Shown here one piece after another: positions 1,100 to 34,011 of a DNA stretch of 42,773 nucleotides. Numbering within the stretch: position 1 is the stretch's first letter; each line of letters opens with the position of its first letter. The translations under genes were made by a program, and so were the position numbers. Where the stretch lies: contig CAMEFI010000026.1 in the NCBI GenBank assembly GCA_945915475.1, forward strand, positions 1 through 42,773, read 5' to 3'. The DNA is from an uncultured Clostridium sp. (GTDB taxonomy: Bacteria; Bacillota; Clostridia; Lachnospirales; Lachnospiraceae). The notes beneath the pieces are model-generated. The model made no database searches. It was not told the DNA's origin and saw nothing but the letters and a program-made list of their open reading frames with translations.

Positions 1100-1135
1100 T
1101 TGCTGTTTGCTATTCATTGCTATACTACTATTACA

Positions 1136-1178: not shown

Positions 1179-1219
1179 TCAAAATCTGTAAAAAAATAGA
1201 AAAATTTTTTTTTGGGGGT

Positions 1220-1245
1220 TAAGTAATCCGTAGAAAGCCCGATAT
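1220..1245 (+). promoter_or_regulatory. Sigma-D (SigD/FliA) promoter of flagellin 2
   Basis: TAAG at 1220-1223, a 15-nt spacer and CCGATAT at 1239-1245 match the flagellar sigma consensus TAAA-N14-16-CCGATAT closely. Transcription should begin near 1250-1252. An A/T-rich block with a run of nine T (1205-1213) lies just upstream and could act as an UP element. Sigma-D control is expected for late flagellar genes. Confidence 0.88.
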
Positions 1246-1249
1246 AAAG

Positions 1250-1380: not shown

Positions 1381-1389
1381 AAACAAAAA

Positions 1390-4882: not shown

Positions 4883-4924
4883 AACTATGAATGATAAAGA
4901 AGGATGTAAGTGGGAGAAACCTGG

Positions 4925-6979: not shown

Positions 6980-6990
6980 GAGACACATTC

Positions 6991-9960: not shown

Positions 9961-9964
9961 CAGA

Positions 9965-13857: not shown

Positions 13858-13880
13858 AAAAGAGAAAAGGTCAATGATTT

Positions 13881-15611: not shown

Positions 15612-15634
15612 GAGACTAAAGATAGGTGAGGAAA

Positions 15635-16723
15635 ATGCTGTTAGGTGTACAATATCATGATTTCCTAAATCCACAAAGCATTATCAAAGGTGGGTTTCAG
15701 TATATGGAAATTCCGTATTCGGTCAATATCAAGAAAGGTTTGTTGCAATATAAACAAGAAGCGGCTGATTATGAACTGAAAGTGTCTGGATTGGTTTGTG
15801 AATTGCAGGACTTGACAGAAGACAAATTAATTGAGTTGATCGAAGCCTGCAGGGGCTGTCAAGGGCACTATATTGTGTTATCGACGATGAATTGCGAAGC
15901 GGGAGTATTGGAGAAGATTATTGCAAATTGTGCAATGAAGCTTGCGGATTATAAGGTGCCGATTTTTATTGAAAATGGATGCAGGGGAAATGATATATCT
16001 GGATATTTTTATAATGCATATTCAGATGTTTCTGATCTGATCTCGATCATAGATTACTGCAAATCATTTTGTAAAGAACTTACGATGGGGATTTGTTATA
16101 ATATTGGATATGCCAATTTATTAGAAAAAAACATCAGCAGTCAGTTGCGCCAATGTGGAGAATATCTGTGTATGGTCCATGGTAATGATAACGATGGCCG
16201 GAGAAACGATAAGCAAATGCCATATACGTTCACAAAAGGACGTGGAGATTTAACAACGGACTGGTATCATATTATAAGAGAATTGATCCATTTACAATTT
16301 CACGGTTGGTTTGTTTTTGATACGGCAGGATTATTTGGGCGGTGTCCGGAAAGGCTGCATACATACTTTATCCGACTTTTACATGCGATAGCTGTTGAGT
16401 GGGAAAAGCAATATACATTTGCAGAGCGTGTGTTAGCTATTCCCGGAAAGAAATTGATACTGTTTGGTGCGGGACAGATGTTAAAGGACTATATGCGGGT
16501 GTTTGGAGAAAAATATCCACCATATTTTGCAGTGGATAATGGACCGGACAGATGGAATACGGAACAAATGGGGGTATCAATTAAAAATCCTCAGGAAATT
16601 CTAAGTGTGCCGGAAGACGAAAGAAATGTCGTGATCTGTTGTATGTATTATGATGCAGTTGGGGCACAGTTGCGCAAAATGGGTGTAGCCTACGAAGAGT
16701 TTCATGATAGATACTTTGTATAG
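15635..16723 (+). CDS. Divergent sugar isomerase-like TIM barrel + FGAG Rossmann-like module
   Basis: The 362-residue protein has an N-terminal xylose isomerase-like/AP-endonuclease-2 type barrel (~1-260), paralogous to the next gene. Shared landmarks are MLLGVQ versus MIKVGVQ and QMPYTF in both. Metal ligands look eroded: the paralogue's CLDIGH reads CYNIGY, MHEND reads VHGND and SFETF reads VFDTA. The C-terminal ~272-362 is the recurring module, LILFGAGQMLKDYM then FAVDN and a late VVICCMYYDAVGAQLRKMG. ATG 15635 is preferred over GTG 15626 by alignment with the paralogue; AGGTGAGG precedes it. It may be non-catalytic or have altered chemistry. Confidence 0.72.
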   Translation: MLLGVQYHDFLNPQSIIKGGFQYMEIPYSVNIKKGLLQYKQEAADYELKVSGLVCELQDLTEDKLIELIEACRGCQGHYIVLSTMNCEAGVLEKIIANCAMKLADYKVPIFIENGCRGNDISGYFYNAYSDVSDLISIIDYCKSFCKELTMGICYNIGYANLLEKNISSQLRQCGEYLCMVHGNDNDGRRNDKQMPYTFTKGRGDLTTDWYHIIRELIHLQFHGWFVFDTAGLFGRCPERLHTYFIRLLHAIAVEWEKQYTFAERVLAIPGKKLILFGAGQMLKDYMRVFGEKYPPYFAVDNGPDRWNTEQMGVSIKNPQEILSVPEDERNVVICCMYYDAVGAQLRKMGVAYEEFHDRYFV

Positions 16724-16738
16724 AAGAGGAATAGGCTT

Positions 16739-17671
16739 ATGATAAAGGTTGGCGTACAAACAAAAGGAATATTGCCGGAAATGGATTTACAAAAAGGAGT
16801 AGAATTAATAGCTGCAGCTGGATTTGAGAAAGTTGATTTTAATTTGGACGCTTTTTTGAAAAATTCGGATGTGTATGCCGGAAAGATCAATACCTTCTTT
16901 GATGAAGATTTGGCGCATTTGTTAGAATATTTCCGTGAGTACAAAGAAATGTTTCAAAGATATGGAGTAGAACCATCACAGATGCATGCACCCTACCCAA
17001 TTTTTGTGCCGGACAAACCAGAAGTGACGGAGTATATGCAGCAAGTTGTCATCCCCAAGAGTATTGCGATTGCAGACAGCCTGGAAATACCATGGGTAGT
17101 TTTCCATCCATTCAAATTGCAGTATACGTTAGGAATTGAAGCCGAACGAGAAATGAATCTGGAATACTTTAAGTCGCTTATTCCGATGCTTAAGAGGTAT
17201 CAAGTGGGTGCATGCGTGGAAAATTTGTATGAGAGCATAGGAGGAAGAATTACAGAGGGTACATGTGCAGACCCAAAGGAAGCAATCTATTATGTAGATA
17301 TATTAAATAAGACAGCGGGGGAAGAAATTTTTGGGTGTTGCCTTGATATTGGGCATATGGAACTGGTTCATAGAGAACCGGCAGAATATATTCGACAGAT
17401 AGGAAGCAGACTCAAAATTCTGCATATGCATGAGAATGATGCAATAGGAGATTTGCACCAGATGCCATATACATTTGGAACAAAGCATGGGGATGGTGTT
17501 GAGTGGGATGAATTTTGTAATGCGTTGCATGAAATAGAGTTTGACGGAACATTAAGTTTTGAAACTTTTCCTTGCATGAATAGTTTCCCAAGAGGAATCC
17601 GAAAAGAAGTGTTGAGGACGATAAGGATGATTGGAGATAGTTTATCAAAGGTGTTAAATAAAGCTGAATAG
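16739..17671 (+). CDS. Sugar phosphate isomerase/epimerase family TIM barrel
   Basis: This 310-residue soluble protein of the xylose isomerase-like family keeps candidate metal ligands in four expected places: E in CVENLYES, D in CLDIGH, H in LHMHEND and E in SFETF. Such enzymes isomerise or epimerise sugars and polyols through a bound divalent metal. It begins 15 bases after the previous stop. With the upstream oxidoreductases it could supply an unusual sugar or polyol. A SigD promoter lies over its last codons, so it is the last gene of the first block. Confidence 0.85.
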   Translation: MIKVGVQTKGILPEMDLQKGVELIAAAGFEKVDFNLDAFLKNSDVYAGKINTFFDEDLAHLLEYFREYKEMFQRYGVEPSQMHAPYPIFVPDKPEVTEYMQQVVIPKSIAIADSLEIPWVVFHPFKLQYTLGIEAEREMNLEYFKSLIPMLKRYQVGACVENLYESIGGRITEGTCADPKEAIYYVDILNKTAGEEIFGCCLDIGHMELVHREPAEYIRQIGSRLKILHMHENDAIGDLHQMPYTFGTKHGDGVEWDEFCNALHEIEFDGTLSFETFPCMNSFPRGIRKEVLRTIRMIGDSLSKVLNKAE

Positions 17672-17681
17672 TGACCGATAT
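17655..17681 (+). promoter_or_regulatory. Sigma-D promoter at the junction of the two island blocks
   Basis: TAAA at 17655-17658, a 16-nt spacer and CCGATAT at 17675-17681 fit the flagellar sigma consensus. It straddles the stop of the isomerase gene (17669-17671). The transcript would start near 17688. It meets a terminator at 17774-17798 before the next gene. Confidence 0.75.
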
Positions 17682-17687
17682 ATACAA

Positions 17688-17798
17688 TATATAGAAAATA
17701 GGATTTATCGAGAGTACGAATGGAGTCGCTTGAAAGCTATATCGGATATATCGTGGAAAACGATTGATGGATGAGCCCTGCGGTTGTGCAGGGCTTTT
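17688..17798 (+). ncRNA. Candidate SigD-driven small RNA (~110 nt)
   Basis: A transcript starting at the SigD promoter would run about 110 nt to the hairpin plus TTTT at 17774-17798. No open frame with a ribosome site lies inside. Short self-complementary segments occur: GCTT/AAGC near 17728-17737, and ATCG/CGAT near 17750-17764. It could equally be an attenuated leader of the downstream operon. No known RNA family is recognised. Confidence 0.4.
17774..17798 (+). terminator. Terminator or attenuator between island blocks
   Basis: AGCCCTGC (17774-17781) pairs perfectly with GCAGGGCT (17788-17795) around a GGTTGT loop, followed by only four T. The short U tract suggests partial termination. 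Confidence 0.65.
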
Positions 17799-17856
17799 GA
17801 TGTATTAAGCACATTTTGAGAGACTATGTGATAGGAAATAGATTAAAGGAGCGTTT

Positions 17857-18588
17857 ATGAATTCAGCAATCATTCTTGCAGCAGGTGTAGGACAACGAAT
17901 GAGAAATGGGGGATTACCCAAACAATTTCTTAAATTAATGGGAAAACCAATCGTTGTATATACAATAGAAAAATTTGAAGAATGTAACGATGTAGACCAA
18001 ATTGTAGTTGTATGTCATAGTGGATATGTTGATTATATGACGGATCTGGTTAAATTGTACAATTTGAAAAAGGTAGTGAAAATCATTGTAGGTGGTCATG
18101 ATAGACAAAGTAGCGTGAAAAAAGGTCTTGATACAATTGCTGAAAAATCATATAAAAAAGATGATATCGTGGTTATACATGATGGAGTCCGACCGTTAGT
18201 GGATGTTTCAACGATCAGTGAAAATATAAGAGTTGCCATACAATATGGTTGTGCGGTTACGGTTCATCCAGTGACGGAATCCGTAGTCATCACCGATGCT
18301 GATAGTGCGGGAATCGAAAACTTTAAGAAAAGAGTAGACACATATTCTATGACAGCACCTCAGTCTTTTCGATTTGGTGAATTATATAAGGTGTATAGTG
18401 AAAAAGTACATTATGAAGATAGAGATATACCATTATTAGATGCAGCAATGGTGTATGCGGATGCTGGAAATGAAGTGCATCTTGTAAAAGAACAGGGAAT
18501 AAATATAAAGATAACAACACCAGAGGATTTTTATTACTTAAAAGCAATTCTTGAGTTGGAAGAAAATAAGTACATTTTTGGATTATAG
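17857..18588 (+). CDS. IspD/TarI-family cytidylyltransferase
   Basis: This 243-residue enzyme has the family landmarks: IILAAGVGQRM and PKQF for CTP binding, GGHDRQSSVKKGL, VIHDGVRP, a central Thr-Ala-Pro-Gln segment (SMTAPQSF) and the C-terminal NIKITTPEDF lysine. IspD activates methylerythritol 4-phosphate, whereas TarI activates ribitol 5-phosphate to CDP-ribitol. The neighbours (an SDR enzyme and a CDP-polyol phosphotransferase) favour a TarI-like polyol role. Sequence alone cannot exclude IspD activity. AAAGGAG lies five bases before ATG. It opens the second, more AT-rich block. Confidence 0.87.
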   Translation: MNSAIILAAGVGQRMRNGGLPKQFLKLMGKPIVVYTIEKFEECNDVDQIVVVCHSGYVDYMTDLVKLYNLKKVVKIIVGGHDRQSSVKKGLDTIAEKSYKKDDIVVIHDGVRPLVDVSTISENIRVAIQYGCAVTVHPVTESVVITDADSAGIENFKKRVDTYSMTAPQSFRFGELYKVYSEKVHYEDRDIPLLDAAMVYADAGNEVHLVKEQGINIKITTPEDFYYLKAILELEENKYIFGL

Positions 18589-18602
18589 GAGAAATTTGTT
18601 AG

Positions 18603-19640
18603 ATGGTTGAAAGCAGAGATATAGACATCATATTGAATAACCCAATAGATTGGGAAATCTTTAGAGATAAAACAGTGCTTGTTACGGGGGCAACCGGTAG
18701 ACTGGGAATGTATATAGTCGAGACAATTAGCAAAGCAAATATTGATTGGAATCTGAATATCACAATAATTATTTTAGCAAGGAACCTTGACAAAATTAAG
18801 AAAGTTTTTGGAGATTCATTACAGCTTCCGTATATCCATACATTAGTTCAGGATATTACAGAAGCGATAACTTGGGAGGGGGATGTGGATTATATATTCC
18901 ATACTGCAGGGTTAGCTAGTCCAAGGGATTTTACCCTATCTCCAGTGGATACCTTATGGGGACATGTGCAGGGAACCAGAAATGTATTGGAACTTGCGAG
19001 AACCAATAAATGTAAAAAAGTTTTATATGTATCAACGGTAGAAATATATGGAGAGTGGACAGCGGAGACGGGGATAAAAGAAACCGACATGGGTCCTCAG
19101 AAGTGTGATAATGCCAGAGCATGTTATCCGGAAGCAAAGCGTGTATGTGAAACAATGCTTGCAGCATATGAGGAACAATACGGGATTCACTATGTGGGTG
19201 TGAGGCTATGTCATACATTTGGCCCGGGAATTGTGCTGGATGATGGAAGAGCGTTCTCAGAGTTTATAAGAAATGTAATAGAGGGAAAAGATATTATTCT
19301 TCAGACAGATGGAAGTGCAATGAGAACATACACATATGTTGCGGATGCAATCGCTGCAATGTTGATTGCATTTACTAAGGGGCGAGACAGCTATTACAAT
19401 ATTGCTAATTTAGATAATTTGATTAGTATAAGAGATTTGGCAGAGTTGATAGCCGGATTGGATACAACTGGAAAAACTCATGTAAGGTATGCTGTCAACA
19501 GTGAACAAAAATTAAAGTATCTTCCCTTTAAACTCGGAATTATGAATGTGGACAGAATCACAGAATTGGGTTGGAAACCTCAGGTTGGTGTAGAGGAAGC
19601 ATTTAAGTATACATTGGAGTCATTTCAGCAGAATATGTAA
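18603..19640 (+). CDS. Extended SDR: NAD-dependent epimerase/dehydratase
   Basis: This 345-residue Rossmann enzyme has TGATGRLG for NAD(P) binding near residue 24, a catalytic STVEIYG segment and YxxxK as CYPEAKR. Extended SDRs of this kind epimerise, dehydrate or reduce nucleotide-activated sugars. It is placed between a TarI-like cytidylyltransferase and a CDP-polyol phosphotransferase. It therefore probably acts on the phosphopolyol precursor or its CDP-linked product, in the position that TarJ holds in ribitol teichoic acid loci. TarJ itself is a zinc alcohol dehydrogenase, so this would be a non-homologous substitute. That role is inferred. Confidence 0.85.
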   Translation: MVESRDIDIILNNPIDWEIFRDKTVLVTGATGRLGMYIVETISKANIDWNLNITIIILARNLDKIKKVFGDSLQLPYIHTLVQDITEAITWEGDVDYIFHTAGLASPRDFTLSPVDTLWGHVQGTRNVLELARTNKCKKVLYVSTVEIYGEWTAETGIKETDMGPQKCDNARACYPEAKRVCETMLAAYEEQYGIHYVGVRLCHTFGPGIVLDDGRAFSEFIRNVIEGKDIILQTDGSAMRTYTYVADAIAAMLIAFTKGRDSYYNIANLDNLISIRDLAELIAGLDTTGKTHVRYAVNSEQKLKYLPFKLGIMNVDRITELGWKPQVGVEEAFKYTLESFQQNM

Positions 19641-19670
19641 TGGAAAAGTGCTGAAATGTGGAGAAAGAAT

Positions 19671-20885
19671 ATGTCCAAAGAATCATTATATATATTCAAA
19701 AGAATTATGAAAGCCAGGGTGCAGAGTATCCTATTTTATTTCTTTCGAATTATCCCGATTAATACAAGAAAAATAGTATTTTGTTGTATAGAAGGAACAA
19801 CAGGATATAGTTGTAATCCCAAATATATAGCGGAAGAATGTATACGAAGGAATCAAATTGGCAAAACAGAGTTTAATCTCGTGTGGTTAGTCAATGACAC
19901 AACGAAGGAGTTTCCGCATGAGATTAAAGTTGTCAAAAACACATTGTGGAATAGAGCATATCAATTAACTACAGCTCATATTTGGATTGATAATAGCAGA
20001 AAACAGTTAGAAGTGCGAAAAAGAAAAAAACAGATATATATTCAGACTTGGCATGCAAAGTTAGGATTCAAGCCTACAGGACTTGACAGGGGAGCTTCAT
20101 TTTCGCGAATCGCGTATATGGTTAGTAAGCATGATTCTGATATGGTAGATTATTGGTTGTCGAATTCAGACTGGTACGATAAGACGCTTAAGACAGGCTC
20201 TTTGTATGAAGGAAAAACCTTAAGAACTGGTTCGCCACGATGTGACATTTTAACGAATAGTTCGAAAGTGGACAGGCAACGGGTTCGCGAGAGATTTCAT
20301 TTGCCTTATAATGCAAAGGTCCTTATGTATGCACCGACTTTTAGAGGCGGAAGTCAGGGGACAAATCGGAAAATTGAAGCAGGCAGCCATATGCCGGATT
20401 TTAATCAGTTAATAGACAATATGGAAGGAAAATTTGGAGGTAAGTGGTATATATTTCTTAGATTGCATCCTCAATTGACTGCCAGGCATATTAACAGTAA
20501 TGTCACGAATGAATGTCTTATAGACGTAAGTAAGGAAGAGGACATGTATGAAATTCTTGCAGGTTGTGATGCATTTATGACTGATTATTCAAGTGCCGCT
20601 TTTGATGCAATGATAATGAGGATACCGGTTTTGTTATATGCAGATGATTATGCGGAATATGAGGGAGAGCGTGGACAGCTATTATGGGATTTGAGGGATG
20701 AAAAGTTCCCATTTTCTCTTTCTGAGAGTAATCGTATGTTAGAAGAAAATATTAGAAGATTTGATAAGGTAGTTTATAACGCCAAAATAGAACAACTCTG
20801 TAGGAATACCAACATGTTAGAAAGTGGAAAAGCGGCAGAGAATGTAGTTGAATTTATATGTAGTTGTGCAGATTGCCAGGGATAA
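19671..20885 (+). CDS. CDP-glycerol/CDP-ribitol phosphotransferase-like protein (TagB/TagF/TarL family)
   Basis: The 404-residue GT-B protein shows typical family motifs: QTWHAKLGFKPTG, YAPTFRGG, LRLHPQL and DAFMTDYSSAAFDAMIM followed by PVLLYADDYAEYE. The family transfers a phosphopolyol from a CDP-polyol to an acceptor. ATG 19671 is preferred over ATG 19656 because GGAGA lies six bases upstream. With the two genes before it, it forms a self-contained 'activate, reduce, transfer' set. It is a second member of this family in the island, after the propeller-bearing protein. A weakly hydrophobic N-terminal stretch (VQSILFYFFRII) may bind membrane but is too short to call an anchor. Confidence 0.88.
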   Translation: MSKESLYIFKRIMKARVQSILFYFFRIIPINTRKIVFCCIEGTTGYSCNPKYIAEECIRRNQIGKTEFNLVWLVNDTTKEFPHEIKVVKNTLWNRAYQLTTAHIWIDNSRKQLEVRKRKKQIYIQTWHAKLGFKPTGLDRGASFSRIAYMVSKHDSDMVDYWLSNSDWYDKTLKTGSLYEGKTLRTGSPRCDILTNSSKVDRQRVRERFHLPYNAKVLMYAPTFRGGSQGTNRKIEAGSHMPDFNQLIDNMEGKFGGKWYIFLRLHPQLTARHINSNVTNECLIDVSKEEDMYEILAGCDAFMTDYSSAAFDAMIMRIPVLLYADDYAEYEGERGQLLWDLRDEKFPFSLSESNRMLEENIRRFDKVVYNAKIEQLCRNTNMLESGKAAENVVEFICSCADCQG

Positions 20886-20918
20886 GGATCGAATTTGATT
20901 GGAGGATAAGGGATTAAA

Positions 20919-21980
20919 ATGAATGAAAGACTGATATTTCCATATAAAACGAAAAATGAGCAACAACAATATTATGAAGCATTGCATCTAGTATATTCCC
21001 GATTAGAAGATGAAACTTCTAAGGAAATTTTTCAGAGTAGATTATTAATGAGTCTGACTGGCAATATTGGTGAGATAAGAAAACTGGTTTTGAAAACAGA
21101 AGCTGGTAGATCTTTAAAGACGCTTTTACAAAAACAAAATAAGATATATTTGTACGGAGCAGGGATCCGGGGACAAAGGATTGTTCAAATGTTTCCTGAA
21201 ATGAACTGGGAAGGTTATATTGATCGTAAAAAAGACGGAACTTGTAACAATATAAAAATTATTAAGTTAGAAAATTTGAAACCGGATGAAGAGGCAATCA
21301 TTTTAATAACAAATTTTGAAGAGTACAATGAAATAAGAGCGGATTTAATAGCACATGGAATTCCGCAGGCTCTCATATATATATTGAATGATTTTGAGGT
21401 GAAAGCACATCAGAATCAGTATTTTGAGAAGCGTTGTATCGACCATTTTTCGGACAAACATGGAGCGTTTTTAGATGCCGGAAGTTTTGATGGAGCAGAT
21501 TGTGTGAAATTCATCAACAGTAGTCTGTATCATAATAATGCATTGTATGCATTTGAGCCGGATGAAAAAAATTATATTATGTGCAAAAAGAAATTAGAAG
21601 AGTTATCCAATGTGGAAGTGTTCAATGTTGGATTAGCGGCAAGTGCTCAAAAGGCATATTTTTTGGCTGATAAGGGGGTGTGTTCTCGAATTACAGATGA
21701 AGGTGATGATGTTATTAATATTGACACGATTGATTCTGTTATCGGGGAAAACAGCATTGGATATATTAAAATGGATATTGAAGGAAACGAACTGGAAGCA
21801 ATACGAGGTGCAGAAAAGCATATTAGAAGAGATCAGCCGAATTTGATGATTAGTGTTTATCATAAAATAGATGACATCATAGAAATACCAAGGCTATTGT
21901 TAGAATATAATCCTGATTACAAATTTTTATTAGGGCATTATTCGGTGTGTAATGCGGATACAGTGCTTTATGCGTTTTAA
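20919..21980 (+). CDS. FGAG module + FkbM-family methyltransferase
   Basis: This 353-residue protein has a helical start, then the recurring module at ~73-165 (KIYLYGAGIRGQRI, then YIDRKKDGTCN). A SAM-dependent FkbM-type O-methyltransferase follows (~180-353) with FLDAGSFDGAD, ALYAFEPDEKN and IGYIKMDIEGNELEAIRGAE. FkbM enzymes methylate hydroxyls of sugars and polyketides. A methylated flagellin sugar is plausible. In its order the module precedes the catalytic domain, unlike the GT2 proteins where it follows. Confidence 0.86.
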   Translation: MNERLIFPYKTKNEQQQYYEALHLVYSRLEDETSKEIFQSRLLMSLTGNIGEIRKLVLKTEAGRSLKTLLQKQNKIYLYGAGIRGQRIVQMFPEMNWEGYIDRKKDGTCNNIKIIKLENLKPDEEAIILITNFEEYNEIRADLIAHGIPQALIYILNDFEVKAHQNQYFEKRCIDHFSDKHGAFLDAGSFDGADCVKFINSSLYHNNALYAFEPDEKNYIMCKKKLEELSNVEVFNVGLAASAQKAYFLADKGVCSRITDEGDDVINIDTIDSVIGENSIGYIKMDIEGNELEAIRGAEKHIRRDQPNLMISVYHKIDDIIEIPRLLLEYNPDYKFLLGHYSVCNADTVLYAF

Positions 21981-22046
21981 TTTGAAAGGACAAAATGCAA
22001 ATATTAGGTTTATGGCCTTAGTGATGAATTGTGGGGAAAGAGGTAT

Positions 22047-23231
22047 ATGGATACAAAAAAAGGAATTACTGTTTTTACACCAGTTTTTAATCGGGCATAT
22101 TGCATAAAGAATGCTTATGATTCTTTGTTAGAGCAGTCATATCAAGATTTTGAGTGGATTATTGTGGACGATGGTTCGACAGACAATCTTCAAAAACTGG
22201 TCAATGAATGGATTTCAGCGCGACAAATAGACATAAAATATGTAAAGGTTCCGAATGGAGGTAAAATGCGGGCGCAGAATCTTGCGGTAAAGATGGCATC
22301 AAAGCCCGCGTTTTTCGTATTGGATAGTGATGACAACTTAAAACAGAATGCGTTGGAATTGGTTTGGAATTGGTTTGAAGAAATACAATATGATACAGGA
22401 TTTGCAGGAGTATCAGGATTAAGAGATTGCACAACGGTTAGGACAGATTTAGATTATGAATATGTGGATATAACAAATTGTCAAAGAAGACGATTTGGGC
22501 TGGCGATGGACACAGCTGAATGTTATAAGACGGATATTTTAAGGAAGTATCCGGCTCCGGAGCATGAGGGAGAGAATTATATTTCACCGGCTATTGTTAC
22601 TAATGCAATTGGTTTAGATGGATATTTAGTGAGATGGTACAATCAGAAAATTTATAATTTTGAGTTTATGGAAGATGGATTAACAAAAAGTGGAGATACA
22701 AAATTCTACAAGAATTATAGAGGATGGGCAGACACCATTCAATTAAATTCGAAGTGCAAAGCAGATGAAGATTATAGAGATTTTGCATATTATAGATATG
22801 CAAAATTTGAACAGGAGAATTTGTCATTGAATGAAATGGCAAATTATTTAGGCACAAGTATAGAAACTCTGGAAAGAATTGTAAAAAAGAAACCATATGT
22901 AATAGAAAAAATAAATTCATTTTTTGAACAGAGAAATATAAAAAAAATTGCAATATATGGATTGGGTCAGGAAGCGAAGCGATTTATCAGATTTACAGAG
23001 GATTACAAGTTTGAAATCACTTGTGGAATTGACAGAGTAAAAAAGAATTTGGGGATACCATGTTTTTCTCCAATGGAAGATTGGGGAATGGTGGATGCGG
23101 TATTGATTACAAATAAGTATTTTATAGATGAAATCAGAGAAAATATTCTGACAAAATCAAATATAGCAGTGTATTCCTTGCAACAAGATATTTTGCCGAT
23201 GCCTTGGAACTATTATTTTTGTGATTTGTAA
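22047..23231 (+). CDS. GT2 glycosyltransferase with C-terminal FGAG-type module
   Basis: The 394-residue protein has a GT2 domain (~1-220) with ITVFTPVFNRAYCI, WIIVDDGSTDN and the metal site VLDSDDN. The C-terminal ~298-394 is the Rossmann-like module in a GLG form (KIAIYGLGQEAKRFI, CGIDR, AVLITNKYFIDEI). ATG 22047 is chosen over TTG 22029 because AAGAGG precedes it and MDTKKGITVFTPVFN is the usual GT2 beginning. It lies in the co-oriented second block. Donor and acceptor are unknown. Confidence 0.85.
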   Translation: MDTKKGITVFTPVFNRAYCIKNAYDSLLEQSYQDFEWIIVDDGSTDNLQKLVNEWISARQIDIKYVKVPNGGKMRAQNLAVKMASKPAFFVLDSDDNLKQNALELVWNWFEEIQYDTGFAGVSGLRDCTTVRTDLDYEYVDITNCQRRRFGLAMDTAECYKTDILRKYPAPEHEGENYISPAIVTNAIGLDGYLVRWYNQKIYNFEFMEDGLTKSGDTKFYKNYRGWADTIQLNSKCKADEDYRDFAYYRYAKFEQENLSLNEMANYLGTSIETLERIVKKKPYVIEKINSFFEQRNIKKIAIYGLGQEAKRFIRFTEDYKFEITCGIDRVKKNLGIPCFSPMEDWGMVDAVLITNKYFIDEIRENILTKSNIAVYSLQQDILPMPWNYYFCDL

Positions 23232-23297
23232 AATATGATAAAACAGACCGACTAAGGAGCTAATTGTAGTCATATCGAAGGTTATTGGGAGAAAAGA

Positions 23298-24542: not shown

Positions 24543-24572
24543 AGAGAATTGAGCAGACTGGTGGAAGATAAT

Positions 24573-26036: not shown

Positions 26037-26057
26037 ATAAGCAGGAGAAATTAGTAC

Positions 26058-27098
26058 ATGGAGAATTATTGGGATGAATTTGAGTATAGCAAATTAAAAT
26101 TAATCATGCATAAGGAAAAAGTTGATTCCATATTGAACATGAAAAAGGGAATCATTGGAATGGATGAATTATTTCCAATTAGTGTTGAGATGCATTTGAC
26201 AGATTGCTGTAATCTGAGATGCGAATGGTGCACAGACAAAGAATTGAGGAAGAACGGTGCAACTATGCATTATGAGGATGTTACATCTTTGCTGCTTGAA
26301 ATGAAAAACCACAAAACAGGTGTAACTATAGAAGGGGGAGGAGAACCAACACTGCATCCGAGATTTTGTGATATTGCTCGATTTGGAAAAGAAAATGATG
26401 TTGACCTTGGTCTTATAACGAATGGAACTAACGATATCAGTAACTGTATATCAGCATTTAAGTGGGTAAGAATATCACTTGATTCAAGCAACGCTAAAGA
26501 ATATATTGGCGAAAAGGGTGTCGATAAATTTGACCTCGTATTAGACAATATAAAAAAATTGTGTGAAAAACGAAATCCGAAAGAAACATTTGTCGGTGTT
26601 GGATATGTATTGACGAAACGAAATCAGAAAAGCTTATTAGAAGTTATTGATATATTAGATGCATTAGGAGTTGATTATATATATTTAAGACCTGTTGAGG
26701 AAGCACCGGATATTAAACCTTCTATGGAGAGCTTATTAGATTTAAGAAAACTATTAGCTGAGTTTACGAAAGATAAAAGAATACGGTACATGCTTACAAT
26801 TGCAGACCGGGTAGTGGATGAAAATGCAGGACTGCCTTGTTTTGCGCATACACTGACTTCAATTATACACGCGAATGGTGACGTTGCTTTATGTGAAAAA
26901 AGAAGACAGGATCCGATTATATTAGGAAATATTTGTAATGCTTCATTTGAAGAAATTTGGAAGTCTGATTACCATAAGGAAATCAGCAGGAAACTATTAG
27001 ATCCATGTTCACAGAAGGGGTGTGCCACTTGCAGAATAACTGGATTTAACATGATTTTAGAGCAGCTTAGCAAAGTTCATACGGACAAATTCATATAG
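26058..27098 (+). CDS. Radical SAM/SPASM-like enzyme
   Basis: The 346-residue enzyme has CNLRCEWC (C51, C55, C58) for the 4Fe-4S cluster, GGGEPTLHP, LITNGTN and a C-terminal SPASM-like region (LPCFAHT, VALCEK, DPCSQKGCATCR). It differs from the other radical SAM protein of the island. It lies directly before a DegT aminotransferase with a 12-base gap. Pairs of radical SAM dehydrogenases and PLP aminotransferases convert a sugar hydroxyl to an amine in aminoglycoside pathways such as BtrN with its partner. That chemistry is a reasonable inference for an amino group on the flagellin glycan or polyol. Confidence 0.88.
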   Translation: MENYWDEFEYSKLKLIMHKEKVDSILNMKKGIIGMDELFPISVEMHLTDCCNLRCEWCTDKELRKNGATMHYEDVTSLLLEMKNHKTGVTIEGGGEPTLHPRFCDIARFGKENDVDLGLITNGTNDISNCISAFKWVRISLDSSNAKEYIGEKGVDKFDLVLDNIKKLCEKRNPKETFVGVGYVLTKRNQKSLLEVIDILDALGVDYIYLRPVEEAPDIKPSMESLLDLRKLLAEFTKDKRIRYMLTIADRVVDENAGLPCFAHTLTSIIHANGDVALCEKRRQDPIILGNICNASFEEIWKSDYHKEISRKLLDPCSQKGCATCRITGFNMILEQLSKVHTDKFI

Positions 27099-27110
27099 GG
27101 GGGATAGAAA

Positions 27111-28145
27111 ATGGTTTTACCTTTTGAAAAAGAATACAGGGAGAAATACTATAAGAAATTAGATGAGATATTTGATTCTAACTTTTGGTCAGATGGAAAA
27201 GTGACCAGGGAATTTGAAGAAAAGTTTGGTGAATATACAGGACTCAGTGCTTGTGCAGTAACGAGCGGTGGTGCCGGCTTATTATCAATATTGGATTATG
27301 TGGATGTAAAGGGCGCAGAGGTTATTGTTCCGGCAAATACATTTTGGGCAACTGCACAAGCTGCTAAGAAGGCCGGAGCTAAAGTTGTATATGCGGATTG
27401 TAATAAAGAAGATCTTTGCATGAGTTACGAAGACATGGTTGGAAAAGTAACAGAAAGGACGAAGGCTATCATTGTAGTACATATAGGTGGACATATTGCC
27501 TTCGATATTGAGAAAATTGCCAGCTTCTGCAAAGAAAAAAATATTGCGTTAATTGAAGATTGTGCACATGCGCACGGAGCGGTTTGGAACGGAAAGGCTG
27601 CAGGTAGTTATGGTATAGCAGGAAGCTATAGTTTTTACGCGACAAAAACCATGCCATTAGGTGAGGGCGGAATGGTCGTAAGTTCCAACAAAGAAATCAT
27701 TGATTGGATTAAAAAGTACAGAAACTATGGTAAGGAAGTCATTAATGGCAATGTTGTAACTTATCCGTTAAAAGAAGGATTCAATTTTAGAATAAGCGAA
27801 TTCACAGCAGCATTAGGATTGGTACAGCTGGAGCATCTTCCGAAAATATTAGAATGGAAGAGAGCACTTGCTAAAAAATATGATCAGATTTTTGAAAAAC
27901 ATGTGGTATTACCGGAGGGGATGGAATCGGGATACTATAAATATATTGTTTTTGATGAAAAGCTAAAAGAGGAAACCGGAAAGGTGTTTAACGATACTGA
28001 TTTTGGAAATGAAATAGAAGGAATTCAGGTAGATTTGCCAAACAGCTACTGGGTTGCAAAGCATCACAAATGTGCACCAATCTACTATGGCTGGGATAAA
28101 GCTGAATGGTCGGTTGAAGAGATTAAAAAATATTTGTTAGGATGA
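27111..28145 (+). CDS. DegT/DnrJ/EryC1/StrS PLP aminotransferase
   Basis: This 344-residue aminotransferase shows TSGGAGLLSIL, EVIVPANTFWAT, IEDCAHAHGA with the PLP-nitrogen aspartate, SFYATKTMPLGEGGM with the Schiff-base lysine, and the late NFRISEFTAALGL. The family transaminates keto-sugars, usually NDP-linked, from glutamate or glutamine. GGGGGG lies just before the start. It is translationally close to the upstream radical SAM gene. Together with the SDR enzyme it would yield an amino sugar or aminopolyol. Confidence 0.93.
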   Translation: MVLPFEKEYREKYYKKLDEIFDSNFWSDGKVTREFEEKFGEYTGLSACAVTSGGAGLLSILDYVDVKGAEVIVPANTFWATAQAAKKAGAKVVYADCNKEDLCMSYEDMVGKVTERTKAIIVVHIGGHIAFDIEKIASFCKEKNIALIEDCAHAHGAVWNGKAAGSYGIAGSYSFYATKTMPLGEGGMVVSSNKEIIDWIKKYRNYGKEVINGNVVTYPLKEGFNFRISEFTAALGLVQLEHLPKILEWKRALAKKYDQIFEKHVVLPEGMESGYYKYIVFDEKLKEETGKVFNDTDFGNEIEGIQVDLPNSYWVAKHHKCAPIYYGWDKAEWSVEEIKKYLLG

Positions 28146-28165
28146 AATAAAAGTAGAGGAATAGA

Positions 28166-29326
28166 ATGAATAAACCGCGTATAAGCATTGTTGTCCCTGT
28201 ATACAATGTTGAAGAATATCTAGAAGAGTGCATAGAGAGTATTATAAAGCAGAGTTATCCAAACATTCAGATCATTTTGGTTGATGATGGATCTACGGAT
28301 TCATCAGGGCTCATATGTGATAAGTATGCTCAAAATGACAGCCGGATAGAAGTGATTCATCAGAATAATGCTGGATTAGTTGAAGCAAGAAAAGCTGGAT
28401 TAAAAAGGACCATTGGCGAATATGTTGGTTTTGTTGACGGCGATGATTACATTGATGAGAATATGTATGAGAGACTACTTGAATATGCGTTGCAAGAAAA
28501 TGTTGATATCGTACATACAGGGTATTGGTATGAAACTGGAAATCAATCATATGCAAAGATAAATTATGACGCTCAGGTTTTATGTTCTGAAAAGGACCGA
28601 ATTAGGCTGGTAGAAGCCATATTAAATATGGTGACAAATATAGAACCAAGCATCTGGTCAAAGTTGTTCAAGAGAGAAGTAGTAATCGATTCATACAAAA
28701 ATGTAAAATCCAGTTGTTCATATGGAGAAGATCTGGTTTGTTTTATTGCCTCAATTATTAAATCAGAAAAAATATATCTTGCTAATAAAGCCTATTATCA
28801 TTATAGAATAAGAAACACGTCTTTGTCACATGGCATGGGAATCGGTGGGATCGATAAAGAAGTGATTCTTCGAGATAATATGAAAGAAGTTTTGATAAAG
28901 AATAATTTATACGAAAGATATAAGGATAATTTGGATTATTATTTTGGAAGAAATATTGTCAAGCAAATGAAAAATATGTGTTTCAATGCATTTGCATATG
29001 AGACGTATTATTTTGGCAAACCACAATTGCTGCAAGATAAGAGAATAGTCTTATATGGAGCAGGTGCTGTTGGGAAAGATTATTATTCACAGTTTTGCAG
29101 ATATACACATTGTCATGTTGTTGCGTGGGTTGATAAGAATTATAATAAAAAGGACTTTGCCTATATTGATGTTATCGCACCAGAACAGCTTCAAACCCTT
29201 GCGTATGATTATGTAGTGATGGCTGTATCAGATTATAATGTCGCAGTCCACATTGCAGAGTACTTAAGGACAATAGGGGTATCAAAAGAAAAGATTGTTT
29301 GGGAAAGACCTTGTCTGTACCAATAG
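28166..29326 (+). CDS. GT2 glycosyltransferase with C-terminal FGAG module
   Basis: The 386-residue protein is a classical GT2 at ~1-230 (ISIVVPVYNVEEYLEECI, ILVDDGSTDSSG, FVDGDDYID). The recurring module occupies ~291-386 (RIVLYGAGAVGKDYY, AWVDKNYNKK, YDYVVMAVSDYNVAVHIAEY). It sits between the aminotransferase and a methyltransferase in the operon with short gaps. A soluble GT2 without membrane helices is consistent with cytoplasmic addition of sugars to protein. Donor and acceptor cannot be read from the sequence. Confidence 0.88.
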   Translation: MNKPRISIVVPVYNVEEYLEECIESIIKQSYPNIQIILVDDGSTDSSGLICDKYAQNDSRIEVIHQNNAGLVEARKAGLKRTIGEYVGFVDGDDYIDENMYERLLEYALQENVDIVHTGYWYETGNQSYAKINYDAQVLCSEKDRIRLVEAILNMVTNIEPSIWSKLFKREVVIDSYKNVKSSCSYGEDLVCFIASIIKSEKIYLANKAYYHYRIRNTSLSHGMGIGGIDKEVILRDNMKEVLIKNNLYERYKDNLDYYFGRNIVKQMKNMCFNAFAYETYYFGKPQLLQDKRIVLYGAGAVGKDYYSQFCRYTHCHVVAWVDKNYNKKDFAYIDVIAPEQLQTLAYDYVVMAVSDYNVAVHIAEYLRTIGVSKEKIVWERPCLYQ

Positions 29327-29338
29327 AGGAGAATAAGT

Positions 29339-29998
29339 ATGAATAGAATTGAGTATTATAACACGGTATATGACAAATTCTGGCAGAGACAGACACACAG
29401 ATACGGATGTACCGGGTATGAAGAAATTATAATTAATAATATTGTCTCTCGCAATGCAAAAAAAGTGTTTTCATGTGGAATAGGGACAGGCTGGCCGATT
29501 GAGAGTGAACTTCACAAAAAGGGAATCATAGTTGATGGTTGTGATGTGGCAGAGAAATCTGTAAAATTAGCGCAAAAAAATCTGAGCAATCCAGCTGGAA
29601 TATATACAGGGATAATTCAGGATTGTAAAAGCAGAAAAGAATATGATGTTGTTTATTGTATGAGGGCAAGCTGGCTTATTCCGCAATTTAAAGATGTAAT
29701 TACTAAAATGATGGATATGTGTAAAGAAAACGGAACTATCATATTTGATATCATGCCAATTGGGAAATATGATAATTTCAAGGAAATAGTCAAACAGATT
29801 TTTTTGAAATGGGTTGGGGTTGAAAAATCGGATGTTCCTGAATTCTGTTACTATTCTGCATGCAAAATGGCAAGATTATTGCGTGCTAACGATTTCAAAG
29901 TTAAGGTAATCAAAGAAGAAGATATTTTCCATCAAAAAAATAGATTCAATTCCCATAAGCTGATATTGATTGCAGATAAGAAAGGAGAAAAAGCATGA
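29339..29998 (+). CDS. Class I SAM-dependent methyltransferase
   Basis: This 219-residue protein carries the SAM-binding glycine motif FSCGIGTGWP near residue 45, the acidic VDGCDVAEKSV and a late FDIMPIGKYD. It is a small-molecule methyltransferase by size and fold; O- or N-methylation cannot be distinguished. N-methyl amino sugars are known on some flagellins, which fits the neighbouring aminotransferase, but this is inference. GAGGAG precedes the start and its TGA overlaps the ATG of the next gene by four bases. Confidence 0.83.
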   Translation: MNRIEYYNTVYDKFWQRQTHRYGCTGYEEIIINNIVSRNAKKVFSCGIGTGWPIESELHKKGIIVDGCDVAEKSVKLAQKNLSNPAGIYTGIIQDCKSRKEYDVVYCMRASWLIPQFKDVITKMMDMCKENGTIIFDIMPIGKYDNFKEIVKQIFLKWVGVEKSDVPEFCYYSACKMARLLRANDFKVKVIKEEDIFHQKNRFNSHKLILIADKKGEKA

Positions 29999-30459
29999 TT
30001 TGGATTATGATATTCGGTATCTTAATCTCCTTCATAGGTGGATTATATTGTGGTGGAAGAATTGTTGCAAAAGATATTAACGTAAGATTAAAACAACTAT
30101 CGAAGTTAAGGCAGATGAATAGCATATATGAGGATTGGATAAAGTATGAAAACACGGGGAATTCTTTAATTAATTACTTTAAGCATAATGGTTACAATTC
30201 TATTGTGATTTATGGTGGGACTGCAATTGCAGAGTGCCTGGTCGGCAGGTTACAGGACGATATTAATATTCTCGCTATTATGGATAGGGATGATTCACTT
30301 GATTTTGGTGTAATACCGACACTGAAACCCGGTGCAGCACCTGCGGGAGCAGAGTGTATTGTCGTGACAACAATTGGACAATTTCAAAATATAAAAAAAG
30401 ATTTAGAAAAAAGTAATAATATACCGATGATATATATTGAGGATATACTGAAATATTGA
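29995..30459 (+). CDS. Membrane-anchored stand-alone FGAG-type module
   Basis: This small protein of 154 residues begins with a hydrophobic segment (MIWIMIFGILISFIGGLY) ending in glycines. A basic stretch (VRLKQLSKLR) follows, as expected of an uncleaved N-in signal anchor. Residues ~66-154 are a bare copy of the recurring module (IVIYGGTAIAECLV, IMDRDDSLD, CIVVTTIGQFQNIKKDL). No catalytic domain is attached. It is translationally coupled to the upstream methyltransferase by an ATGA overlap. It might tether the cytosolic enzymes to the membrane or scaffold them; this is speculative. No named family is recognised. Confidence 0.75.
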   Translation: MIWIMIFGILISFIGGLYCGGRIVAKDINVRLKQLSKLRQMNSIYEDWIKYENTGNSLINYFKHNGYNSIVIYGGTAIAECLVGRLQDDINILAIMDRDDSLDFGVIPTLKPGAAPAGAECIVVTTIGQFQNIKKDLEKSNNIPMIYIEDILKY

Positions 30460-30474
30460 AAAGAGACCAGCTAT

Positions 30475-31731
30475 ATGAGAAAAAAACTTTTAACAATATC
30501 CATAGCAGCATATAATGTTCAAAAATATTTGGAAAAGACATTACAATCCTTAGTATGTGAAGCTGATGTAATGGAACAGCTAGAAGTATTGATTGTGGAT
30601 GATGGATCTGTTGATCAAACAAGTATTGTAGCACAGAAATATGTAGATTTGTATCCGGATACATATGTGTTGATAAAAAAAGAAAATGGTGGACATGGTT
30701 CCACATTGAATGTTGCTGCAAGTGTTGCGCATGGCAGATATTTTCGTATGCTGGATGGGGATGATTGGTTCGATACAGAGGCTTTGGTAAAATATATACG
30801 TGATCTCAGTTTGATCGATGCAGATTGTATCGTAACACCATATTGCCATGTTTATGAAGACCATATGGTATCTATAGATGTGCATAACTGGATCAATCAT
30901 AGAAAATATAATTTGCCGGAAGTTATGGATATCGTTCAAAAGGATGGACAAATGACGGAAATCCAGGCGCATGAATTGACAGTCAGGACGGATATATTAC
31001 AGCAGAATGGCATGGAACTGTTAGAAAAATGTATGTACACAGACAAAGAATATGTGTTGTTTGCAATTTTATATGCTCGTACATTTATTAAATTGCCCTA
31101 TTCTATATATCAATATCGCTTGGGAGATGCAGGACAATCGGTTGGTAGTGAAGGAAGAAGAAAGCATCTGTGGGATGCAAAAAGGGTCGGCTTTGCTATG
31201 CTGCATGAGTTACAGAATCGTGAAGAATATATTATCGGTGGTAAACATAAAAATTATTTGTATAATTATGTCCTTTATTCACTCCTTTTTTTCTGTGACA
31301 GCCTGATTTACTCTGATGAGATCAAAAATGCGGAGAACATCTTGTCAACGCTTATTACGGAATTAGGAAAGTATGATCAGAAGTTTGCAAAGACATTAGA
31401 ACAAACGGCTATATATAATTGGTGGAAAACATTTTTTGCATTAGTGGAAGATTATGAATTTGTTATTTTTGGAGCTGGACAATATGGTGAGTGTGTCATA
31501 GAATATTTGAAATATTGTCATAAGCAGCCCGTAGCAGTTTTAGATAATAATCAGCAGCTTTGGGCTGCGACAAGGTATGGAAATGTAATTCATTCACCAG
31601 AGATATTGTTGTCCCAGCATAGCAATGCGAAGGTAATAATTGCAATTAAAAATCAGCCTGAAACAATAGAAAAACAGCTTATCGCAATGGGGGTATCCTC
31701 AGATAGAATTCTTACTTTTAGAAGGCAATAA
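30475..31731 (+). CDS. GT2 glycosyltransferase with C-terminal FGAG module
   Basis: The 418-residue protein has GT2 features at ~1-230 (LLTISIAAYNVQKYLEKTL, LIVDDGSVDQT, RMLDGDDWFD). The recurring module is at ~326-418 (FVIFGAGQYGECVI, VAVLDNNQQL, VIIAIKNQPETIEKQLIAMG). It is the third GT2-module fusion of the island. It ends three bases before the next ATG, implying a single mRNA. Acceptor and donor are unknown. Confidence 0.88.
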   Translation: MRKKLLTISIAAYNVQKYLEKTLQSLVCEADVMEQLEVLIVDDGSVDQTSIVAQKYVDLYPDTYVLIKKENGGHGSTLNVAASVAHGRYFRMLDGDDWFDTEALVKYIRDLSLIDADCIVTPYCHVYEDHMVSIDVHNWINHRKYNLPEVMDIVQKDGQMTEIQAHELTVRTDILQQNGMELLEKCMYTDKEYVLFAILYARTFIKLPYSIYQYRLGDAGQSVGSEGRRKHLWDAKRVGFAMLHELQNREEYIIGGKHKNYLYNYVLYSLLFFCDSLIYSDEIKNAENILSTLITELGKYDQKFAKTLEQTAIYNWWKTFFALVEDYEFVIFGAGQYGECVIEYLKYCHKQPVAVLDNNQQLWAATRYGNVIHSPEILLSQHSNAKVIIAIKNQPETIEKQLIAMGVSSDRILTFRRQ

Positions 31732-31734
31732 ATT

Positions 31735-34011
31735 ATGAGAGAAAAAAATATAGAGAATTTCTTGAAATTAGGACTGATTAATTGGCTCCCTATGAAATCG
31801 GGCTCTATGGTATTAGTGGTTGGCGGCTGCGCAGAATTTGTGCAGGATTTCCAACGACGCGGGCTAAAAGCATCCGGTATCAATAATGTACATGAGTTAG
31901 TCGATATCCAAACGCAATATGATTACATTTTGATTTGTGATGGGGATAGTTTTTTGGTGGAAACGGATAAAAGGCATATCGATATCAAACGGATGTTGAA
32001 ACCAGCGGGACATCTTTTTTTGGCGTGCACAAATAGACTTTCACTGAGAAATTTTGTTGGAGATGCTGATCCTTATACAACTGGGACATTTGATGGAATT
32101 GAAAATTATTGCAATTACAGTTCACTGGAACTGCAGAATTTTTCTGCAAGAAGTTATGCTCGAAATGAAATAGAAGATCATATAAAGGAATGGGGATTTA
32201 CCGGAAAGCAGTATAGAGGATATTCGATTTTTCCTGGATTGGAAATGCCGCAGTTGATTTTTGCGTGGGATTATCTTCCAAAGGAGGATTTGGAAACCAG
32301 GTATACTCCATTGTATAATAATGCAACAAGAATCTTTCTCAACGAATCCAAAATTGTAAATAGTCTTGTAAAAAATGGAATGTTTCATGCTATGGCAAAT
32401 GCATATCTGCTGGATTGCTCGGTTAATGAGAACTTTTATGAATTTAATCAGGTCACTACATCCATGGAACGTGGCGAAGAGCATGCTATGGCTACAATAT
32501 TACAAAAGAACGGAAAGGTGATTAAAAAGGCGTTATATCCAAGAGGAAATTCTACGATCAAAAATTTGGTGGCAAACATGCTGGAATTAAAGCAGAGAGG
32601 CATTGCTACGGTCGGGTTGGAACAAATGGAAATAGGGAACTGTGATGAAACTATGTTATTGGCGTGCCAAATGGACTACATAGATGCTCCTTTAGCAATA
32701 AAGTATTTGCAAAATTTGTTGTATGAAAATAAAGAAAAATTTCGACAAGCTGTGTGCAAATTCCTTGATACAATCATGGATTCTGGTGATGTCAAGGAAG
32801 GGGAAAAGACAGAATTGGGACCTATTTATAGGCGGGTTTATTTTGATCTGGTTCCCATTAATTGTTTTGTAATTGATGGAGAGTTTGTTTTCTTTGACCA
32901 GGAATATGTAATTGAAGATTATCCTATCAATGCCATATTAATGAGAGTGTTAAACTTTTTGTATATTGGCAATAGAAGTGCTGATCAAATATTGCCAATG
33001 TCTTATTTTACAAAAAAGTATCATTTGGACAATAAGCAGCAGATATATGGCAGTATGTCTGCTGCCTATTTGGATGATTTGAAACATACTACTGAATTGA
33101 TAGGCTTTCATAGTAAGCATAAGGCTGACTTGGCAGCATTAAATGCTAACCGCCAAAAAATCCAATACGATATGGCAACATATATCTCTTTGTTTCTCAA
33201 TTATTTGCAAGGTATTCAAGGGAAAAAGGTATTCCTATTTGGAAGCGGTTTATGGGCTCAGAAATTTGTGGCAGAGTATGGAGATAGAGTGAATATTAGC
33301 GGAATGCTGGATAATAATTCTGCAAAATGTGGAACGGTTGTTGCCGGCATTACTGTAATGGAGCCTTGCGTATTGCAAGAACTTGAATCAGATACTTACA
33401 AGGTCATTATTTGTGTTAAGCAATATCCGGAAATTGTTAGGCAGTTGAATGAAATGAAGGTTAGCAACTATGGCATTTATGATCCTTACGTTGATGTTCA
33501 TGATATAATAGGAGATCGACAATCTCTGGTAATAGAAGACCCACAATTCATTGCGGAACAAGGGGCTAAAAGTGATAAGGTAAAACAGTATCATATCGGA
33601 TTTGTTGCAGGAGTATTTGATTTGTTTCATGTTGGACATCTTAACCTACTTCGGCGGGCAAAGGAACAATGTGAAATCCTAATTGTAGGAGTTGTCTCCG
33701 ACGAGCAGGCATGTAGTAATAAAAAGCATAGCCCATACGTTTCAGAGCAGGAAAGGCTGGAAATTGTTAAGGCGTGTAGATTTGTAGATACAGCTTTTAT
33801 AATGCCAAGAGTTGCGGCAGGAGCAAGAGATATATACAAAAAATATCATTTTGATGTCATGTTTTCTGGGGATGACTATAAGGATGATGCATATTGGCTT
33901 GGAGAAAGGGAATGGCTACGTTCACATGGATCGGATATCGTTTTTTTTCCATATACGCAGAGTACCAGTTCCACAAAGCTTAAGGCGGCTATAGAGCAAA
34001 ATAAGGCTTGA
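31735..34011 (+). CDS. Four-part fusion: methyltransferase-like, kinase-like, FGSG module, cytidylyltransferase
   Basis: This 758-residue soluble protein appears composite. Residues ~20-185 resemble a class I methyltransferase (VLVVGGC, LKPAGHLFLACTNR), though the SAM glycine loop is unusual. Residues ~195-430 may be an aminoglycoside/choline-kinase-like domain: DLVPINCFV and FVFFDQEYV recall the catalytic D-x-x-x-x-N and metal-binding DxE elements. Residues ~495-600 are the recurring module (VFLFGSGLWAQKFV, GMLDNNSAKCG). Residues ~620-755 are a choline/ethanolamine-phosphate or glycerol-phosphate type cytidylyltransferase (GVFDLFHVGHLNLL, TQSTSSTKLK). Kinase plus cytidylyltransferase in one chain could turn an alcohol into a CDP-alcohol. 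The kinase call is the least certain. It ends the second block. Confidence 0.75.
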   Translation: MREKNIENFLKLGLINWLPMKSGSMVLVVGGCAEFVQDFQRRGLKASGINNVHELVDIQTQYDYILICDGDSFLVETDKRHIDIKRMLKPAGHLFLACTNRLSLRNFVGDADPYTTGTFDGIENYCNYSSLELQNFSARSYARNEIEDHIKEWGFTGKQYRGYSIFPGLEMPQLIFAWDYLPKEDLETRYTPLYNNATRIFLNESKIVNSLVKNGMFHAMANAYLLDCSVNENFYEFNQVTTSMERGEEHAMATILQKNGKVIKKALYPRGNSTIKNLVANMLELKQRGIATVGLEQMEIGNCDETMLLACQMDYIDAPLAIKYLQNLLYENKEKFRQAVCKFLDTIMDSGDVKEGEKTELGPIYRRVYFDLVPINCFVIDGEFVFFDQEYVIEDYPINAILMRVLNFLYIGNRSADQILPMSYFTKKYHLDNKQQIYGSMSAAYLDDLKHTTELIGFHSKHKADLAALNANRQKIQYDMATYISLFLNYLQGIQGKKVFLFGSGLWAQKFVAEYGDRVNISGMLDNNSAKCGTVVAGITVMEPCVLQELESDTYKVIICVKQYPEIVRQLNEMKVSNYGIYDPYVDVHDIIGDRQSLVIEDPQFIAEQGAKSDKVKQYHIGFVAGVFDLFHVGHLNLLRRAKEQCEILIVGVVSDEQACSNKKHSPYVSEQERLEIVKACRFVDTAFIMPRVAAGARDIYKKYHFDVMFSGDDYKDDAYWLGEREWLRSHGSDIVFFPYTQSTSSTKLKAAIEQNKA

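Follow-up and report, generated by a model that had tools for sequence, protein, structure and literature searches.

Why should one gene cluster, lying next to flagellin genes, carry the same small domain in eight proteins, most of them enzymes that transfer or modify sugars? The question is raised by a 42,773-nt stretch of an uncultured Clostridium sp. of the Lachnospiraceae (contig CAMEFI010000026.1; hereafter the window, in whose positions coordinates are given unless a contig or locus is named). A reading of the sequence alone had proposed that a Rossmann-like module was shuffled through eight unrelated proteins there and served one pathway. That interpretation was partly supported. The eight segments form one family of a Rossmann-like domain of about 90 residues (the module), and related loci hold it in large numbers. 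By analogy with the phosphoglycosyl transferase WbaP, we tentatively favour, at a little less than an even chance, the idea that the module acts as a common tag for assembly, with a nucleotide as the switch, used in cytosolic protein-glycosylation islands with a membrane-anchored copy as platform.

Fold and family of the module

Profiles built from any seven of the window modules recovered the eighth, which confirmed that one module is present in eight proteins, and the same leave-one-out profiles matched no SDR (short-chain dehydrogenase/reductase), MocA or dehydrogenase protein of the window. Table 1 gives the E value of each module with the module profile (A1), followed by the leave-one-out value. 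Identity among the window modules was 30% or less; the GxGxxG motif and the Asp of a GxGxxG...D site were conserved across modules. The AlphaFold model for module 7 (pLDDT 92.2, pTM 0.83) resembled the N-domains of CapD and WbaP, Rex and PglD-type domains, with Rex among the nearest folds, in agreement with the nucleotide-binding type of Rossmann fold first suspected. One structure close to the model, 3nkl, we take to be of CapD type.

The module belongs to a fold group together with the PglD N-domains, the CapD/WbaP N-domain (PF13727), the C-domain of sugar C-methyltransferases and Rex. This group was already known. Full-text literature searches, with subscription papers outside their scope, did not meet the module, or its frequent use as a tag of one type of pathway with an anchored copy, in titles or abstract openings, and a search pairing C2185 with glycosyltransferase found nothing.

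The likeness to PglD N-domains and sugar C-methyltransferases noted from the sequence also held: at E<=0.01, 30 of 106 modules matched PglD_N (PF17836), 20 matched Methyltransf_14 (PF08484) and 12 matched C2185-like_N (PF22674), so that the last covers only part of the modules. The best PglD_N match among 113 module proteins had an E value of 5.2e-13, and one of the eight window proteins (30475) passed the curated cut-off of that family (24.7 vs 23.4 bits). A LicD relative (L076:5971-7311) exceeded the Methyltransf_14 cut-off (38.4 vs 23.5 bits). C2185-like_N was matched by 8 of the 113 proteins at E<=1e-4 (best 2.3e-17), with weak matches in GT-D proteins. Neither Methyltransf_14 nor C2185-like_N was listed for the eight window proteins at E<=1.

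The known systems of this fold differ from the module proteins in their setting. PF13727 (CoA_binding_3), the accessory domain of WbaP-type large phosphoglycosyl transferases and of CapD/PglF-type dehydratases, has the same fold, but the module proteins have no four-helix bundle, their partners are many kinds of soluble enzyme, and PF13727 is absent from the 16 Pfam families matched by the 106 modules at E<=0.01. The N-domain of PglD, VioB and PerB is likewise a Rossmann domain of nucleotide-sugar-binding type; however, by motif the left-handed beta-helix acetyltransferase stood beside the module in 0 of 519 module proteins, and the eight window proteins gave no such Pfam match. Motifs of CapD, Rex and the PglD acetyltransferase were found in 0 of the 519, so none is Rex-like by this measure. 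The N-terminal zinc-type motif of the sugar C-methyltransferase sort occurred in 2 of the 519; KijD1 and D-mycarose 3-C-methyltransferase represent the PF08484 enzymes, whereas most module partners are other enzymes.

Neighbourhoods, partner enzymes and the anchored copy

In its own genome (3.09 Mb), profile A1 gave 14 matches: eight in the window, four at C3:140.2-144.6 kb, one on a 3-kb contig and one marginal. Only three of the 25 GT2 (glycosyltransferase family 2) domains of the genome carry the module, all three in the window. The C8 glycan locus (28-93 kb, L157-L160), which is large and has 12 GT2 domains, holds no module and serves as an internal control. Among 40 genomes searched (this one and 39 relatives), the module was present in 18 at E<=0.01 and absent from 22. 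Module genes cluster in the relatives as well, with eight adjoining in L057 and nine within 16 kb in L051.

For a wider set, a profile from the alignment of the membrane-anchored copy (A2) was scanned over 84,980 species genomes, and the best 80 of 141 relatives' loci were taken. Presence of the anchored protein was the selection criterion for these loci and is therefore uninformative; the other modules are informative. By our own count, Lachnospiraceae appears in the titles of 51 of the 80, the rest naming genera or 'bacterium', and two loci came from metagenome-assembled genomes titled Bacteroides and Muribaculaceae. The 80 loci and the window together held 523 modules (independent E value <1e-4), of which 229 were N-terminal, 154 C-terminal, 127 in open reading frames (ORFs) shorter than 200 aa and 13 in other positions. 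Two or more modules were found in 77 of the 80 loci, and in the 68 loci with at least three module genes, 497 of the 800 genes within the module span carried one. Together with the module-free control locus, these counts bear out the enrichment in such loci for which a profile search had been proposed.

Partners were assigned from Pfam matches over the cut-off, scanning individually the proteins of the window, of same-genus relatives and of the 80 loci. They fell into 24 families, fused at either end of the module, which widens the spread over unrelated enzymes first seen in the window. These were GT2, Glycos_transf_1, GT8, GT11, GT-D, Gly_transf_sug, Glyco_transf_56, WbsX, RgpF, DUF4422, DUF268, TOD1_MUCI70, NKWYS, Capsule_synth, LicD, WcbI, FkbM, other methyltransferases, TupA-type ATP-grasp, radical SAM, polysaccharide deacetylase, aldo-keto reductase, xylose-isomerase-like and CTP_transf_like proteins. 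Matches to HAD and sulfatase stayed below the cut-off.

Carriers and non-carriers within the same module spans were compared using window proteins as queries (E<=1e-5). Enzymes of the SDR, aminotransferase, UDP-sugar dehydrogenase, IspD and MocA types made up 2 of 384 module genes vs 28 of 290 non-module genes (p 4e-9), and none of the SDR (12) and DegT-type (10) enzymes found had the module. All 38 FkbM methyltransferases, searched with the window FkbM domain, were module genes; GT2 counts were 67 with and 25 without. Pfam samples agreed: 130 non-module genes included nine epimerases and six DegT proteins, and for 113 module genes neither family appeared in the 25 of 57 families shown. Since Glycos_transf_1, GT2 and GT11 proteins were also met without a module, the rule is not absolute.

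The module also exists without an enzyme. An N-terminal hydrophobic segment was found in 92 of 127 stand-alone module proteins, at a distance from the module of 48-53 residues (10th to 90th percentile), so that the length of the stalk is nearly constant. The stalk pattern N-x-W and K-Q was seen in 86 aligned sequences; it is partly a product of ascertainment, the 86 having been picked by N-x-W and one locus-search pattern having contained it. The stalk-module unit ends 11 fused enzymes, the twelfth listed ORF (210 aa) being an anchored-type protein. Sampling 200 genomes of the taxonomic family gave 25 with a match to the anchored-family profile, some matches lying in longer fused proteins, and one tblastn query found no anchored protein encoded in plasmid or phage records.

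These loci are poor in polytopic membrane proteins. A counter verified on two window membrane proteins and on other loci classed 6 of the 1291 genes of the 80 loci as polytopic; in the C8 glycan locus of the window genome, which has no module, the figure was 8 of 47. It found none between 4910 and 34011, hence no flippase or polymerase candidate in the window cluster, which fits a cytosolic route. Flagellin genes lie near the module more often than expected. In the window genome and 16 relatives, 9 of 27 module loci have one within 30 kb, where 1.15 would be expected; in the 19 genomes to which 20 of the 80 loci led, 7 of 45 do, against an expectation of 1.91 (p 0.003). Both multi-module loci of this genome adjoin flagellins; on C3, flagellins at 122.2, 128.2, 130.3 and 152.9 kb surround the modules at 140-145 kb. 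We read the window as a probable flagellin glycosylation island. The type A flagellin glycan locus of Clostridioides difficile (cd0240-cd0244), for which a CDP-linked amino-acid unit is proposed, encodes a glycosyltransferase, a nucleotidyltransferase that is the proposed source of the CDP-linked unit, an N-methylating enzyme and a TagF-like phosphotransferase (PMC10714395). The parts are similar in kind, since the window has GT2s, CTP_transf_like, IspD-like and FkbM proteins and a CDP-glycerol-type transferase beside flagellins, but its locus is far larger; we use the likeness as a working analogy and make no claim of membership.

What the module may do

In the reading that we favour, the module would be a shared assembly tag, and the product of the loci would be a protein glycan built in the cytosol, in this genome on flagellin. 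Contacts between modules would bring together the enzymes working on the glycan as it grows, these contacts probably being set by a uridine or cytidine nucleotide bound in the GxGxxG...D site, and the anchored copy would form a membrane platform for them. The nucleotide that transfer sets free could signal flux, in the way that UMP may for WbaP. The PF13727 domain of WbaP makes the majority of inter-chain contacts and is stabilised by UMP, UDP and UTP, the full-length enzyme is inhibited by UMP (IC50 4.1 uM), and the authors propose nucleotide feedback through the PF13727 domains (PMC10942596). We favour the tag over a pure sensor or substrate handling because the module avoids nucleotide-sugar synthesis enzymes, sits on many neighbours and exists alone behind a membrane segment.

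A bolder form of this reading, possible but in our judgement doubtful, sees a tagged assembly in the whole cytosolic protein-glycosylation pathway: one nucleotide-binding docking domain would be shared by most of the enzymes that transfer or tailor, which come from dozens of unrelated families, the anchored copy would collect them near the flagellar export site, and released nucleotide would be the switch. Such a pathway would be the glycosylation counterpart of cohesin-dockerin or docking-domain systems and would carry over to whole pathways what WbaP suggests for membrane enzymes, a common accessory domain that senses nucleotides. The tag would then mark glycan-assembly enzymes by sequence in Lachnospiraceae and related bacteria and help to separate cytosolic glycosylation islands from lipid-linked export loci. 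With tag, anchor and many tagged enzymes in one gene cluster, the long-standing metabolon question would become directly testable.

The alternative that survives best, though we think it rather unlikely, is an allosteric sensor: each module would bind UMP, UDP, CMP or a nucleotide sugar and tune its own enzyme like an ACT domain, the anchored copy being a separate sensor or decoy. The conserved GxGxxG and Asp are compatible with it, as are the UMP binding and inhibition of WbaP and the presence of Rex, a redox sensor, among the folds nearest to the model. A search for a locus-specific docking code gave no signal (z 0.7), which also suits a sensor. However, one would look for feedback sensors on the enzymes of nucleotide-sugar synthesis, which are rarely carriers, up to eight neighbouring genes with the module would not be expected, and the anchored copy is left without a role.

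Less probable again is substrate handling, in which the module would grip a nucleotide-linked intermediate by its nucleotide while the attached enzyme acts on the sugar, as happens with the N-domain of PglD and with the C-domain of sugar C-methyltransferases. The homology to both families speaks for it, and so does the fact that every FkbM-type protein found in the module spans (38/38) is a carrier. Glycosyltransferases, however, are a main partner group and already possess their own donor site, the anchored copy has no enzyme, and the SDR and DegT-type enzymes found in the spans all lack the module; the data lean away from simple handling of nucleotide sugars because the enzymes that synthesise them there rarely carry it.

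Descent bears on a third possibility, a mobile passenger domain of little function spread by local duplication and recombination, for which the broad range of partners at both ends could be cited. Relatedness among the modules follows the partner enzyme: for 336 of 496 modules, vs 53 permuted, the closest module from another locus sat on the same class of partner, and still for 161 vs 53 without pairs of at least 35% identity. Mapped on a FastTree tree of 378 rows, the 14 classes of partner label needed 78 changes vs 227 when shuffled, and locus labels 446 vs 448. Nearest neighbours from the same locus numbered 15 vs 6.7 expected, a twofold excess that lies inside the permuted range (maximum 18). 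On the nearest-neighbour tests and the tree we reject within-locus duplication, and the shuffling within the locus that had been suggested from the sequence did not stand. Since the modules track the partner and not the locus, old fusions have been gathered into loci; the 78 changes suggest that partners were also swapped many times. Module-bearing enzymes seem to have been chosen to live together, and this co-residence argues for a shared function more strongly than copying within a locus would. With conserved site residues and the low identity among the window modules, these results already disfavour the passenger, which we hold to be very improbable. That the module is generic Rossmann similarity and no real family is scarcely credible: the wide profile does reach proteins that are Rex-like (about 220 aa) and CapD-like (about 630 aa) by length, at E about 1e-9, so that the border to known families is not sharp, but leave-one-out recovery, the lack of CapD, Rex or PglD-acetyltransferase motifs and the restriction to few GT2 domains of the genome all count against it.

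Several points weigh against a shared assembly tag. Sharing a locus does not make two modules more similar than coming from different ones (z 0.7), so that a universal interface would be required. Glycosyltransferases are also found without the module in the spans (of 130 non-module genes sampled, 21 Glycos_transf_1, 14 GT2 and 8 GT11). The AlphaFold model of the GT2 protein with module 5 (pTM 0.83) dips at the linker (pLDDT 62 at residues 271-280) and neither indicates nor excludes a fixed packing of the two domains. By the threshold used, 35 of the 127 stand-alone copies have no membrane segment, and flanking charges (31/31/30) do not settle the topology of the others. The term cytosolic rests on transporters missing within about 10 kb; relatives' loci with few modules (L060, L061, L062, L064 and L066) have 7 polytopic proteins in 61 genes, so the scarcity belongs to loci with the anchored copy and not to every module. 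No flagellin was found within 30 kb on the same contig, some contigs being short, for 18 of the 27 and 38 of the 45 module loci. The docking and ligand steps are inferred from the precedent of the related WbaP domain, which dimerises by a beta-hairpin swap and binds UMP.

Other features of the window and its relatives

Table 1. Positions of the modules and other features in the window.
Feature	Position	Strand	Context	Values
Module 1	16418..16717	+	C-terminal in xylose-isomerase-like protein 15626-16723	E 6.7e-31; leave-one-out 7.6e-8
Module 2	21126..21428	+	Precedes FkbM methyltransferase domain of 20919-21980	E 2.2e-29; leave-one-out 2.3e-8
Module 3	22911..23222	+	C-terminal in GT2 protein 22029-23231	E 2.5e-28; leave-one-out 0.0056 (weakest)
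Module 4	24549..24875	+	N-terminal in GT-B-type protein 24549-26036	E 2.3e-31; leave-one-out 1.1e-11
Module 5	29009..29323	+	C-terminal in GT2 protein 28166-29326	E 1.5e-33; leave-one-out 1.9e-7; whole-protein model pLDDT 93, pTM 0.83
Module 6	30166..30456	+	Alone after hydrophobic segment and stalk, 29995-30459 (154 aa)	E 5.0e-27; leave-one-out 0.0012; anchored-family profile A2 E 3.8e-18
Module 7	31423..31731	+	C-terminal in GT2 protein 30475-31731	E 3.2e-32
Module 8	33193..33483	+	Internal in 758-aa fusion 31735-34011	E 4.0e-33; leave-one-out 1.2e-13
Two flagellin genes	1..2772	+	First cut by contig end; upstream of glycan cluster	Flagellin_N at C26:2-130, C26:1396-1806
Glycan cluster	4910..34011	+	GT2s, CTP_transf_like-MocA, MocA-GDPD, IspD-like, SDR, CDP-glycerol-type transferase, aminotransferase-like, eight module proteins	
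Aminotransferase-like protein	27111		Named from sequence	

In the 758-aa fusion, an N-terminal part without an assigned family is followed by module 8 and a CTP_transf_like domain, and a similar architecture was seen in L114:13365-15632. Its first 490 or so residues (31735-33190) gave no convincing Pfam family and no solved relative by sequence; by eye, this part looks methyltransferase-like and then kinase-like, reminiscent of WbdD. The radical SAM protein at 23298-24542 was considered as a ninth copy, its N-terminus (IWANDWIGELL...IHAVD) looking module-like, and was rejected on an HHalign probability of 2.5%; BLASTP against a module-bearing radical SAM relative was not significant (best E 1.2). 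Rex has a winged-helix DNA-binding domain ahead of its Rossmann domain; a Crp-type helix-turn-helix ahead of the module appeared in the window only in the GT2 protein at 22029, below the cut-off (best E 0.0098).

Two large proteins with GT2 domains follow the flagellins (4910-9960); the second has two such domains, the first a weak TPR match, and neither has the module. Unusual fusions join CTP_transf_like to a MocA-type oxidoreductase (12451-13857) and a MocA-type oxidoreductase to a glycerophosphodiester phosphodiesterase (GDPD; 13881-15611). Downstream of the glycan cluster, 39453-42612 presumably encodes an ECF-type transporter set (substrate-binding membrane protein, double ATPase and transmembrane protein). 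Rfam gave nothing over threshold in the window. Of four window sequences compared with PHROGs, two matched, weakly and to a single family whose function is not known.

Elsewhere in the genus, a well-conserved protein of about 775 aa with a C-terminal module recurs (L047:9141-11474, L054:5272-7608, L056:419-2734 and L058:9435-11768). Its start looks HAD-like by eye, and L077:6465-8882, a module protein of about the same length, matches HAD below the threshold. Two modules stand in tandem in a 243-aa protein (L086:14042-14770), and two adjacent modules are also found in L118:14273-15871.

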